Shown here: piece after piece, positions 7,944 to 48,220 of the stretch
Layout of the letters: every line of letters begins with the position of its first letter
How positions within the stretch are numbered: position 1 is the stretch's first letter
Assembly (NCBI GenBank): GCA_030432235.1
Contig: JAUIHT010000010.1
Span: 62,001-126,000, forward strand
Length of the DNA stretch: 64,000 nt
Origin: Verrucomicrobiia bacterium
GTDB lineage: Bacteria > Verrucomicrobiota > Verrucomicrobiia > Opitutales > Cerasicoccaceae
Reading direction: 5' to 3'
Translations under genes and position numbers: made by a program
Notes under the pieces: generated by a model
Told to the model about the DNA's origin: nothing
The model's input: the letters and a program-made list of their open reading frames with translations, nothing else
Database searches by the model: none

Positions 7944-8888
7944 ATGAGTACCCCTCAAGTTGTAGTTGTTGGCAGTTTTAACCAGGATTTGACCTGGACG
8001 ACTCTCAAGTTTCCCCGGCCCGGCGAAACCATCACCGGACGCTTTAAGAGTGGCCCGGGCGGCAAGGGTTCGAACCAGGCAGTGGCGGCCGCCCGCGCCG
8101 GTGCAGCGACGGCTTTTGTGGGCGCTATCGGGGATGATCCTTTCGGCCACGCGTTGCCGGCTTTTTACGACAGCGAGGGCATCCGGCATCATCTGGCGGT
8201 CAAGGACGAGCCGACCGGCAACGCCGGCATCTGGGTGGAAAGCTCAGGCGAGAACGAAATCATCGTCGCGCTAGGCGCCAATCTCGTGTTGGAATCCGGT
8301 GACGTTCCCGAGGGACTGATTGAGGATGCGCGTATCGTGTTGTGCCAGCATGAATCCAGTCTGGCGCTCAACCACGACGTTTTTGTCCGCGCGCGCGACG
8401 CCGGAGTGGCAACCTTGCTCAACCCCGCGCCAATGCGGGAGGATTTCGATCCGGCCATCCTCAAGCTCACGGACATTCTCGTACCCAATGAGACTGAATT
8501 CATCGCCCTGGCGGAAATCCTTGGCGCTGCTTCCGGCCTGACCGAGGACGACATGGCTGCGATGAACATTAACGACATGCATGCGCTTTGCCGCAAGTTT
8601 GACGTTCCCACTGTGGTGGTGACGCTGGGTAGCCGGGGTTGCCTGATTTCAAGCGCAGACGGGCCGAAGCAGATCCCCGTGCATTCGGGTATTACCGTGG
8701 TTGACACCACCGGAGCGGGTGATGCCTTCGTGGGCGGCTTCGCAGCGGGATACTGTAAAAGCGACGGCAACATCATCGAAGCGGCGAAGTTCGGCAACGC
8801 CACCGCGGCGCTTTCCGTGACCAAGCCCGGTACCGCGCCCTCCATGCCGCAGCGTGCCGAAATCGAGAAGCTGTTGAGCGGCAGTTAA
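7944..8888 (+). CDS. rbsK: Ribokinase (PfkB family)
   Basis: 314 aa. VVVVGSFNQDLTW, PRPGETITGRF and the first PfkB signature GGKGSNQAVAAARAGA are followed by the second signature DTTGAGDAFVGGFAAG (catalytic Asp near residue 258). It phosphorylates ribose to ribose 5-phosphate in the cytoplasm. No ribose transporter is adjacent; the divergent nucleoside deoxyribosyltransferase suggests a nucleoside-salvage context. Its stop overlaps the stop of the convergent membrane-protein gene by 4 nt. Confidence 0.85.
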   Translation: MSTPQVVVVGSFNQDLTWTTLKFPRPGETITGRFKSGPGGKGSNQAVAAARAGAATAFVGAIGDDPFGHALPAFYDSEGIRHHLAVKDEPTGNAGIWVESSGENEIIVALGANLVLESGDVPEGLIEDARIVLCQHESSLALNHDVFVRARDAGVATLLNPAPMREDFDPAILKLTDILVPNETEFIALAEILGAASGLTEDDMAAMNINDMHALCRKFDVPTVVVTLGSRGCLISSADGPKQIPVHSGITVVDTTGAGDAFVGGFAAGYCKSDGNIIEAAKFGNATAALSVTKPGTAPSMPQRAEIEKLLSGS

Positions 8889-41761: not shown

Positions 41762-42253
41762 ATGTCTAGCGCATCTCTCACCTCTGTTATGTCAGCACTC
41801 TTCTCAGCACCGCTTGAGGCGGTTGTTGATGCCGAAGCCCGCTATCGTCAAATCTGGAGCAAATGGATCAAGGACCAGATGCTCTTCCTTGGCATTACCG
41901 ACGCCACCAAGGGCGATGTCCTGCTCAAGGTGTTGGATACCGCCCCGGTCGTCACCCTGGATGGCAAGGTGGAAACCGCACTGACCATGCGCATCGCCTC
42001 CGTCAGCGAGCACAAGGGTGGTCTGTCCGCGGGTCTGCAGGTCGGCCCCATCTTTGCCTCCGGCAGCTACAGCATGATGAAGCGCAGTGCCGAGGAAAGT
42101 GTCTTCCAGGCCAGCACCCAGTTTGTGATCAGTAATCAGGGGTCGAATCTGGTCGATTACCTGAAGTCGAAGGGTTTGACGCCACCGGCCACAGGCAAGG
42201 AGCTTGGCGATTTGGCGGATAAACTCATCAAGACGCTACCAGCTCAATCATAA
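41762..42253 (+). CDS. DUF2589-like beta-domain protein, gene 1 of a trio
   Basis: 163 aa from ATG 41762 (GTG 41717 possible). The N-terminal helix SAPLEAVVDAEARYRQIWSKWIKDQMLF resembles the start of DUF2589 proteins, followed by a beta-rich part VVTLDGKVETALTMRIASVSEHKGGLSAGLQVG, SYSMMKRSAEESVFQASTQFVIS and a helical tail. The pattern V-x-L-x-hyd-x-S-...GG... recurs in the two following genes. No catalytic motif is seen. Function unknown; DUF2589 proteins have been noted near secretion and phage-like systems, but no such genes are adjacent. Confidence 0.55.
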   Translation: MSSASLTSVMSALFSAPLEAVVDAEARYRQIWSKWIKDQMLFLGITDATKGDVLLKVLDTAPVVTLDGKVETALTMRIASVSEHKGGLSAGLQVGPIFASGSYSMMKRSAEESVFQASTQFVISNQGSNLVDYLKSKGLTPPATGKELGDLADKLIKTLPAQS

Positions 42254-42259
42254 GTCGCC

Positions 42260-42697
42260 ATGCCACAGAAAAAAGCCAAGAAGGCGGTCGCTGCCAAAAA
42301 GGCAGCATCTGTCAAAGAGGAGCGCGATAAGCTTATTGAGGATCTGCAGACCTTGATGGAGGATGCAAAGAACCTTACTGGTGAGATACCCGATGGATTG
42401 ACCAATAATCCAGATGAGGAAATTGCGCCTGACTCCTTGGACGCGGCCCTGATCGCTCTGCAGAAGACTTTCAGTCGCCTTAGCCGGGCGACTGCCAAGA
42501 AAGTCAAGGATCCCACTGCGGCGGTCAGCCTGATTCAAGGCCCCGTGGAATTCAACCTGAAGCTGCGGGCCAGCCATTACGGCGGCACTTTTACGCTGAA
42601 GGACGATGGTCCGGTCGAGCTGACTTTGGATGGTACCGTGCAGACGGATATCCGCAGCGTTCTGCCGGAGGATATCGACGAATCGGATGATAACTAG
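42260..42697 (+). CDS. Hypothetical beta-domain protein, gene 2 of a trio
   Basis: 145 aa. A Lys/Ala-rich N-terminus (KKAKKAVAAKKAASVKEERDKL) leads to a helix, a disordered Asp/Glu region and a small beta domain at the C-terminus: GPVEFNLKLRASHYGGTFTLKDDGPVELTLDGTVQTD. This domain looks like those of genes 1 and 3. The gene begins 6 nt after gene 1. Not recognised. Confidence 0.5.
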   Translation: MPQKKAKKAVAAKKAASVKEERDKLIEDLQTLMEDAKNLTGEIPDGLTNNPDEEIAPDSLDAALIALQKTFSRLSRATAKKVKDPTAAVSLIQGPVEFNLKLRASHYGGTFTLKDDGPVELTLDGTVQTDIRSVLPEDIDESDDN

Positions 42698-42726
42698 AAC
42701 TACAATTCCAAATCTAGCGACCAGCC

Positions 42727-43062
42727 ATGATTAGCAAACGTCGAATCGCCGCGAAAGCCGCCCAAGAACGCCGCAGAAAACGCGCGCAGCAAGTCCAGGA
42801 GAGTCTCGAGCATGTGGATAGTGAGGCAACCGTGCTTCCCGGCCAATCCGTCGGTGAGCTTTTTGCCAACATGGTGGAGGACATCAGTATCGCCATGTTG
42901 CCCGGAGAGGACAACCAGCCCGCCCACAAGGTGCCCGTCGATGTCGAACTGAAGTTCAAGTCGGCATCCGTCGATGGGGGCGGATTGATTTTTAATCGCA
43001 AGAAGGAAGAGTCGAGTATTGAAATAACGCTCTCGACTCGTGTCATGCCTCCTGATGACTGA
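42727..43062 (+). CDS. Hypothetical beta-domain protein, gene 3 of a trio
   Basis: 111 aa. A basic helical N-terminus (RRIAAKAAQERRRKRAQQVQ) is followed by LFANMVEDISIAMLP and the beta domain KVPVDVELKFKSASVDGGGLIFNRKKEESSIEITLSTRV. The strand-GG-strand-(E/S)-x-I-x-hyd-S layout is like that of genes 1 and 2 and, more weakly, like small trypco-type domains. It sits 29 nt after gene 2 and 14 nt before the ABC ATPase gene. Confidence 0.5.
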   Translation: MISKRRIAAKAAQERRRKRAQQVQESLEHVDSEATVLPGQSVGELFANMVEDISIAMLPGEDNQPAHKVPVDVELKFKSASVDGGGLIFNRKKEESSIEITLSTRVMPPDD

Positions 43063-43076
43063 GCTATCTTGGGCGA

Positions 43077-43865
43077 ATGCCCGTGGCCGGGTCTGTTCGC
43101 TCAATCATGGTATCCTCCCATCATATCGCCGCCGCCTTCCGTGACGTTACCAAACGATTCGGGGAGACGGCTATTCTTGAGGATTTTTCGCTCGAGGTAG
43201 CCGGCGGGGAGTTTGTCAGTATCATCGGGCCCAGCGGTTGCGGCAAAACGACCTTGTTGCGTCTGCTGGCCGGTTTGACGGAGCCCAGTGGTGGTGAGAT
43301 TACCCAGGAGGGTCAGGCCGGGCGTAGCGCCTACATCTTCCAGGATGCCACGCTGCTGCCCTGGCGAACCGCCCTGCGCAACGTGGAGCTGCCGCTGCAG
43401 CTCGCGGGAGTATCCAGGGATGAGCGACGGCAGCGGGCGGAGGAATTGCTCAAGCTGGTCGGACTAAGTGACGCCACATTAAAGTATCCGAGGCAACTGT
43501 CGGGGGGCATGAAGATGCGTGTTTCGCTGGCGCGTGGACTGGCCCTGCAGCCATCGCTCATGCTGCTGGACGAGCCTTTCGGCGCGCTTGACGCCATGAC
43601 CCGCAACCGCCTCAACGAAGAGCTGCTGGACCTGCGCGAGCGTCAGCCGTTCACGGCGCTGTTCGTCACGCACTCGGTCAGCGAGGCGGTATTTCTGTCC
43701 AATCGCATCGTGGTGATGTCCGGGCAGCCCGGGCGCATCGCGGTGGTCGAGACCATTGACTTTCCCTATCCGCGCAAAAGTGCTCTGCGCGAGCAACCAG
43801 AGTACTACGAGAAGGTGGCCAAGGTCACCGGATTGCTCCACCAAGCCGAGGAGGTGGTGGCATGA
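43077..43865 (+). CDS. ABC transporter ATPase, SsuB/TauB-like
   Basis: 262 aa. Walker A GPSGCGKTTLLRLLAG, Q-loop YIFQDATLLPWRT, signature QLSGGMKMRVSLARGL, Walker B LMLLDEPFGALDAMTR and H-loop ALFVTHSVSEAVFL are intact; TLLPWRTALRNVELPLQLAG is typical of nitrate/sulfonate/taurine-type importers. Start 43077 is kept, but 43107 is possible. The permease gene overlaps its stop by 4 nt. No binding protein or substrate-linked enzyme lies nearby, so the substrate is not assigned. Confidence 0.88.
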   Translation: MPVAGSVRSIMVSSHHIAAAFRDVTKRFGETAILEDFSLEVAGGEFVSIIGPSGCGKTTLLRLLAGLTEPSGGEITQEGQAGRSAYIFQDATLLPWRTALRNVELPLQLAGVSRDERRQRAEELLKLVGLSDATLKYPRQLSGGMKMRVSLARGLALQPSLMLLDEPFGALDAMTRNRLNEELLDLRERQPFTALFVTHSVSEAVFLSNRIVVMSGQPGRIAVVETIDFPYPRKSALREQPEYYEKVAKVTGLLHQAEEVVA

Positions 43866-47521: not shown

Positions 47522-48073
47522 TTATTTGCGACGACGCAATAAAAAGAGCCCGATAACGGCCAGACCAAAAACCGATGCATAAGTGCCTGGCTCGGGGATA
47601 GCCTGCAAATTACCGAAGCCACCATCCGTATTGGTTATGGGCGAGTCTGTTGCAAACAGAGTGTCCTCCAGATAGGACTTTTGCGCGGCGCTGGCATTGC
47701 TATAGCTGTAGGTGAGATTATTGAAGGTCAGATTAGTGGAATTATCGGTGTCAAAAAAATATATAAAGCTAAAGGCGACGGCGCTGCCATTGGAAGTCAT
47801 CTTAATCTCGGTCGAGTTAATGGTGTTTCCGGTTACGTCGACCGAGCCGCTGACGAAGCTCATAGTCTGATCGCCAGCGTTATCCGAGGAGCTCATCGAC
47901 TCATACCATACCGCAAGATTTACTCCCGGCACAATGAACTGCGGATTGCCCGAGGCGCTGCCTGTAAACGTGATGGTGTCATTGCCTGCATCGACTTCAT
48001 AGAAAAGAGCGGCCTGTGCGAGCGCAGGCATCAGGCAAATGGTAGAGAGGAATGCTAGTGTGCGAATTAACAT
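47522..48073 (-). CDS. PEP-CTERM sorting-tail protein
   Basis: 183 aa from ATG 48073 (frame open to 48103). A signal peptide (LIRTLAFLSTICLMPALAQA) is followed by a beta-rich, Ser/Asn/Thr-rich domain and the canonical ending IPEPGTYASVFGLAVIGLFLLRRRK: PEP, hydrophobic helix, Arg cluster. Exported and anchored by exosortase in this scheme. Its two neighbours on the minus strand each end next to one copy of a 33-nt direct repeat (47478-47510 and 48183-48215). Confidence 0.85.
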   Translation of the reverse strand: MLIRTLAFLSTICLMPALAQAALFYEVDAGNDTITFTGSASGNPQFIVPGVNLAVWYESMSSSDNAGDQTMSFVSGSVDVTGNTINSTEIKMTSNGSAVAFSFIYFFDTDNSTNLTFNNLTYSYSNASAAQKSYLEDTLFATDSPITNTDGGFGNLQAIPEPGTYASVFGLAVIGLFLLRRRK

Positions 48074-48220
48074 TATAACATTGAATGACAGCAACGTTAT
48101 CATGCCACAAGGAAAAACGAGGGTATAAGCTTTAAGGCATGCTGTATGAATCGTTTACGAATCAATCCCCGGGTGGTCCTGCGGGCGCTTTTTCCTCAAA
48201 AGAGGGCTATCCTGCTCGGT

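Follow-up and report, generated by a model that had tools for sequence, protein, structure and literature searches.

Three small genes in the window (the whole stretch of 64,000 nucleotides analyzed here) form a rare, patchy unit, and the first of them probably encodes a divergent DUF2589-type protein. True DUF2589 operons were repeatedly found paired with enzymes that belong to different families and act on one substrate, peptidoglycan, which suggests that DUF2589-type sets work in conjunction with cutting of the cell wall. By analogy, we tentatively propose that the trio, as a rare accessory operon, carries a DUF2589-type set whose products would join in a mixed complex linked to the controlled opening of the cell wall, with a peptidoglycan hydrolase as the partner; we regard this as quite possible, if not probable. 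A partner that stays in place in the operon but switches enzyme family is a strong hint that the cutting of peptidoglycan matters. The link to lysins turns the unnamed DUF2589 family into a testable one, and gives the proteins of the trio a first testable role.

The three open reading frames are co-directional, with gaps of 6 nt between the first and second (P1 and P2) and 29 nt between the second and third (P2 and P3), which bears out the tight spacing of the genes at 41762, 42260, and 42727 noted in the first-pass annotation. The features of the region are as follows:

41762..42253, + strand: P1, DUF2589-like, 163 aa; N-terminal helix, 4 predicted strands, and C-terminal helices (low-confidence model)
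41801..41866, + strand: P1 motif F14-x2-P17-x2-A20-x3-A24-x10-W35, spaced as the conserved DUF2589 columns I/P/A/A/F
41966..42127, + strand: predicted strand region of P1, residues 69-122 (low-confidence model and hhalign)
42260..42697, + strand: P2, no family assigned, 145 aa
42449..42541, + strand: conserved block L64-G94 of P2 (ALQK and SR motifs, then LIxGxV), invariant alignment columns
42727..43062, + strand: P3, Trypco2-like, 111 aa
42940..43044, + strand: predicted strand region of P3, D72-V106 (VDVELKFKS ... IEITLSTRV), from conserved columns and the Trypco2 alignment
43107..43865, + strand: ABC ATPase, outside the trio unit and unlinked from the trio in the related genome G001

The start of P1 at 41762 agrees with the start positions of its homologs. 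On one side, the trio is flanked by a gene on the - strand (41592-40990), which we take to be ruvA, and on the other by an ABC ATPase/permease pair. The GC content of the trio is 0.552, compared with 0.581 for the window and 0.61-0.64 for the neighbors of the trio. All three proteins are free of cysteine, and a simple hydrophobicity scan found no obvious membrane span in them; a scan for promoters and terminators gave counts at chance level. P2 has a lysine-rich N-terminal stretch and P3 a basic one, both of which are missing from the homologs in Ideonella. Elsewhere in the window, a short protein encoded at 47522-48103 (- strand) looks by eye to be secreted and to end in a PEP-CTERM-like tail.

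The trio, ordered and tight, is present in the window genome, in one other genome of the same family (G001), and in 3 members of the betaproteobacterial genus Ideonella. Since homologous trios with this order occur in both G001 and Ideonella, P1, P2, and P3 are genuine genes, and the objection considered in the first-pass annotation, that the three are not kept together as a unit, is refuted. When the window genome and its relatives (36 genomes) were searched with P1, the homolog of G001 was retrieved with 37% identity (E 2.8e-23), along with 2 further, marginal matches (G015 and G018); behind the G001 gene, homologs of P2 and P3 follow in the same order (tblastn E 7e-9 and 1.5e-6). A plasmid search with P1 yielded one record, from Ideonella dechloratans (E 2e-22), in which 2 hypothetical genes with the sizes of P2 and P3 lie directly behind the P1 homolog, and a scan of genome contigs added Ideonella oryzae and Ideonella sp. 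B508-1, each with a trio. Pairwise identities of the homologs to the window proteins are 20-44%. Wider, overlapping samples, queried with P1 alone, covered 387 genomes of the window's phylum, 345 of its class, 349 of the Ideonella order, and 369 of the Ideonella phylum. Beyond the window genome, G001, and an Ideonella genome (G423), these gave only marginal partial matches (best E 0.0007): G124 and G370 in the 387-genome sample, both with internal stops; G1168 (E 0.0007, inside a 2395-residue frame), G1283, and G1316 in the class sample; and 6 genomes in the Ideonella-phylum sample (E 0.006-0.046). Viral contigs scanned with alignments of P1, P2, and P3 gave 47, 44, and 119 pattern stretches, respectively, none of which was confirmed, and a phage search with P1 yielded nothing of use. 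The phylum of the window genome appears to differ from that of Ideonella, and horizontal spread would be the simplest reading of so rare and patchy an occurrence.

In all 3 Ideonella genomes, the trio begins 21 nt after a gene whose product combines a GH19 and a peptidoglycan-binding domain (Glyco_hydro_19, 3.6e-11; PG_binding_1, 3e-17) and matches an endolysin PHROG (1.9e-58). This GH19 is 45% identical over 180 residues to that of a DUF2589 locus (L031). As the 3 trios come from close relatives in one genus, the link between trio and lysin is a single observation. Near the window trio (tblastn) and in the 16-kb trio locus of G001, no relative of 6 lysins was found, and a search of G000-G009 (G000 being the window genome) for relatives of the Ideonella lysin, run without a positive control, found none. 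A lysin in the operon is thus a feature of the Ideonella trios and not of the loci in the window and G001, and the window trio, divergent and apparently free of a lysin, extends the range of forms to another lineage.

Two further observations concern the Ideonella loci. In I. dechloratans and sp. B508-1, the GH19 gene and the trio are preceded by a gene (L007 6558-7064; also L011 1667-2215) with a signal-peptide-like start by eye; its product matched no Pfam or NCBIfam family, and may be a partner of the lysin, either for immunity or in the envelope. At 1.5 kb upstream of the trio, a gene for a RES-family NAD+ phosphorylase follows a weakly Xre/ParS-like gene (L007 5414-6478), a pair of the toxin-antitoxin type.

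DUF2589 itself (PF11655) had no match in the window genome or among 54 relatives; the same search does detect the family in other genomes. A total of 19 DUF2589 loci were collected, from 6 of 299 genomes of the Ideonella phylum, 5 plasmid records, 1 contig of the phage collection, and 7 viral contigs. One each of D1 and of the second DUF2589 copy, D2, were present in 17 of them, and a third small gene, D3, in 8. A same-strand peptidoglycan hydrolase was encoded in 10 of the 19 loci (a raw count), and these were of 5 kinds:

L028, L031: GH19
L029: Amidase_3
L059, L064: muramidase (PF11860)
L062: phage lysozyme (GH24); also L070-L072, where it flanks the DUF2589 pair on both sides
L065: PHROG endolysin (1.3e-25)

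L070-L072 are near-identical, and when they are collapsed, a lysin is found in 8 of 17 loci. In the other 9 loci (L027, L030, L060, L061, L063, and L066-L069), 6 lysin representatives matched nothing in the stretch examined; the open reading frames of these loci were profile-scanned in part, and in L066 and L063, the sequence ends shortly behind the DUF2589 genes. L060 has an opposite-strand gene that is annotated as peptidoglycan-binding and matches no family. The DUF2589 pairs of L067, L068, and L069 (the first also with D3) are located on viral contigs (28-195 kb) in which the 6 lysins have no relative, and they adjoin genes that by eye are glycosyltransferase- or replication-like.

Other neighbors of the DUF2589 genes were also recorded. 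In L060, a gene for a Mor-type (phage middle-gene) transcription activator lies beside them (8416-8835; just above the Pfam cut-off for Mor), and a neighbor in L031 (5647-6120) is similar to such activators by eye alone. These Mor-type genes suggest a phage ancestry of the DUF2589 module. Several more genes near the sets we take by eye to be effector-like, including DUF4157-like, DUF2235-like hydrolase, and EndoU-like ones (L028 771-6041; L029 9518-11317; L030 6255-6779; L070 5195-5728, as a list of regions); among the effector-like genes of these 4 loci, one has a product that Pfam identifies as DUF922 protease-like (6e-19). In the literature searched (one library), neither a published account of the pairing of DUF2589 with lysins nor an assigned function for DUF2589 was found. 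The family came up in a single mention in one passage, in agreement with the earlier statement that no described system has exactly such a set.

The abundance of lysins in these loci could have a different origin: 8 of the 19 come from viral or phage collections, where lysins are common. If lysins were frequent only on phage-like DNA, the trio and the DUF2589 sets might build a self-assembling cytoplasmic structure, such as a filament, shell, or storage body, that needs no lysin. At least 2 DUF2589-type paralogs are encoded in all 19 loci (in L063 in pieces), as such a structure would lead one to expect, and the lysin-free surroundings of the trio in the window genome and G001 point the same way. 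Moreover, since Archaeoglobus fulgidus is an archaeon and has no peptidoglycan, its DUF2589-related genes argue that a lysin is not always needed. In the passage of PMC3949148 that concerns them, AF0414-AF0417 form a region of short genes up-regulated on lactate. However, a same-strand lysin is present in 6 of the 11 chromosomal or plasmid loci, the variety of enzymes over all loci speaks against a structure without need of them, and so does the lysin gene placed 21 nt before the Ideonella trio. We consider a lysin-independent structure rather unlikely, and see in the lysin connection of the wider DUF2589 group the part most worth following.

None of the three proteins passes any family threshold in Pfam, NCBIfam, or PADLOC, and a search of PHROGs with the trio gave nothing below 0.01. 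Compared by hhalign with a 20-sequence DUF2589 profile, P1 aligned with an E value of 0.0048 (probability 7%, score 25.1), down from 0.015 with a 5-sequence profile, and none of 100 permutations scored as high (maximum 18.5). The alignment is collinear and runs end to end (P1 9-158 on DUF2589 22-193), and F14, P17, A20, A24, and W35 of P1 coincide gap-free with I20, P23, A26, A30, and F41 of DUF2589, so that P1 carries the conserved N-terminal P/A/A helix motif of the family. When the N-terminal columns were shuffled, 9 of 2000 shuffles reached the score, for a region picked after the alignment had been seen; for the conserved columns over the whole length of P1, 117 of 300 did. AlphaFold2 models of P1 (3-sequence alignment, pLDDT 48.5) and of a DUF2589 protein from a viral contig (6 sequences, pLDDT 48.9) both place a long N-terminal helix before the strands and a C-terminal helix, an order that, at this low pLDDT, agrees with the alignment and says no more. 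Profiles of the 3 trio families and one DUF2589 protein found nothing below E 0.4 among solved structures. P1 was rejected as a straightforward member of DUF2589, as it does not reach the Pfam cut-off of 23 bits and matches no Pfam family even at E up to 10. The resemblance to DUF2589 claimed for the first gene in the first-pass annotation is therefore consistently, if weakly, supported, at a score below the level of membership, and we infer that P1 is probably homologous to DUF2589.

P3 resembled Trypco2 (PF19631, trypsin-co-occurring domain 2), with an hhalign E value of 0.0089 (probability 4.5%) that none of 60 and none of 100 permutations equaled. Straightforward membership was rejected here as well: against a Pfam cut-off of 24.2 bits, the Ideonella P3 scored 12.5 bits and the window P3 gave no match. 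In a mixed set, 3 of 14 members matched Trypco2 (best E 0.051). P2 aligned with Trypco2 at a score reached by none of 100 permutations, and by 1 of 60 in another run. The second DUF2589 copy, D2, was compared with P2 (E 0.12, 2 of 100 permutations as high), with P3 (E 0.03, 0 of 100), and with Trypco2, to which it aligned over most of its length (E 0.0057, 0 of 100); for Trypco2 and D1, 3 of 100 permutations were as high. Trypco2 and D2, two unnamed adaptor families, are possibly distant kin. Within the trio, the observed score was reached by 3 of 100 permutations for P1 and P3 (2 of 60 in another run) and by 2 of 60 for P2 and P3, and P1 and P2 aligned with an E value of 0.7. Being at or near the permuted background, these direct comparisons do not establish mutual kinship; of the domain of V-x-hyd-x-L type that had been assigned to all three proteins, the strand is visible by eye, but profile comparison does not establish the proteins as kin. 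The likenesses among P1-P3, DUF2589, and Trypco2, none of which is at membership level, would be explained if all belonged to a loose superfamily of adaptor-type proteins built of a helix plus strands. Several other sub-threshold matches were judged to be due to chance: those of P2 to Phage_scaffold (E 0.0043; 17.5 bits, where the cut-off is 35; in a lysine-rich helix), of P3 to MscS_TM and NgoMIV, and of the Ideonella P3 to ALGX (E 0.053).

With profile probabilities this low, the likenesses to DUF2589 and Trypco2 may themselves be chance matches between helix-plus-strand proteins, and P1-P3 an unrelated, new set. The shuffles over the whole length of P1 and the near-background comparisons of P2 and of P1 with P3 are what one would expect in that case; a collinear, end-to-end alignment that improves with profile depth and beats every permutation is not, nor is a lysin neighbor common to the trio and the DUF2589 sets. 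We judge a chance likeness to be unlikely.

If the Trypco2 likeness is given more weight, the trio might be the adaptor set of a conflict (self-defense) system. Trypco1 and Trypco2 genes neighbor trypsin-like peptidases in VMAP conflict systems, where, in the passages of PMC10907252 and PMC7159879 that deal with them, they are termed adaptors; Trypco-like domains beside trypsin- or caspase-type effectors would pass on a signal. The similarities of P3, P2, and D2 to Trypco2 all favor such a role. They have to be set against the lack of any PADLOC match, the sub-threshold Trypco2 score of the Ideonella P3, which the unrelated ALGX equals, and the genes around the trio: in the window, G001, and Ideonella, no trypsin-like or caspase-like effector and no other protease, TIR, or MoxR/vWA gene was seen beside it, mostly by eye and annotation. 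A conflict-system adaptor set is, in our view, distinctly unlikely.

That the trio precedes an ABC importer by 14 nt, as first described, is true of the window if the ATPase, presumably of the NitT/TauT type, is read from its earliest ATG (43077). The gap may instead be 44 nt, with the next in-frame ATG (43107) as the start, because homology with other ATPases sets in 9-14 residues after that start. The adjacency is not a conserved one: approximately 0.9 Mb separates the trio of G001 (1,543,462; approximately 1.54 Mb) from the best importer homolog there (632,885; approximately 0.63 Mb); the importer homologs of 6 relatives have neither the trio nor ruvA within the approximately 3.7 kb examined; and no importer was found beside the Ideonella trio. 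Given the unlinked arrangement in G001 and the trio-less importers of the relatives, the importer is a chance neighbor and linkage to it was rejected; a role of the trio as an importer accessory, such as a substrate or regulatory subunit, is very improbable for all their close spacing.

In the preferred reading, that of a complex tied to cell-wall breaching, P1 (divergent DUF2589-type), P2 (a further small protein), and P3 (of the Trypco2-like adaptor type) would all be small and soluble and most likely form an assembly with one another. Their working partner would be a peptidoglycan hydrolase, as the Ideonella trio and true DUF2589 operons suggest by analogy, and the window organism would use a lysin encoded elsewhere. 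The complex might be the cargo that the lysin lets out, or else a carrier or regulator that holds and places the lysin; either way, we infer by the same analogy that the function of the window trio involves the cell wall. A bolder version would have the DUF2589-type sets, including the trio, be a phage-derived, holin-free lysin carrier, in which small paralogous proteins in a complex carry or gate interchangeable hydrolases (GH19, GH24, amidase, muramidase, or endolysin) and so open the wall to release or export cargo. We consider this version doubtful.

Among known systems, Trypco2 resembles P3 in that the alignment spans both helix and strands, but P3 stays below the Pfam cut-off and the trio adjoins no visible gene for a trypsin-like protease. 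Type 10 secretion and holin-endolysin release cassettes offer an analogy only: no holin or spanin was identified with the trio and no lysin is adjacent in the window genome, whereas the pairing of protein genes with a phage-type lysin for cargo release is alike. As for DUF2589, its first hairpin is missing from P1 by the alignment, P1 falls below the threshold of the Pfam model, and P2 and P3 are unrecognizable as D2 or the small D3. Nevertheless, P1 and DUF2589 share an N-terminal helix with the pattern [IF]-x2-P-x2-A-x3-A-x10-[FW], followed by strands and a C-terminal helix; the trio and the DUF2589 operons are both sets of small adjacent genes; and the Ideonella trio, like 10 of the 19 DUF2589 loci, has a lysin in the same operon.
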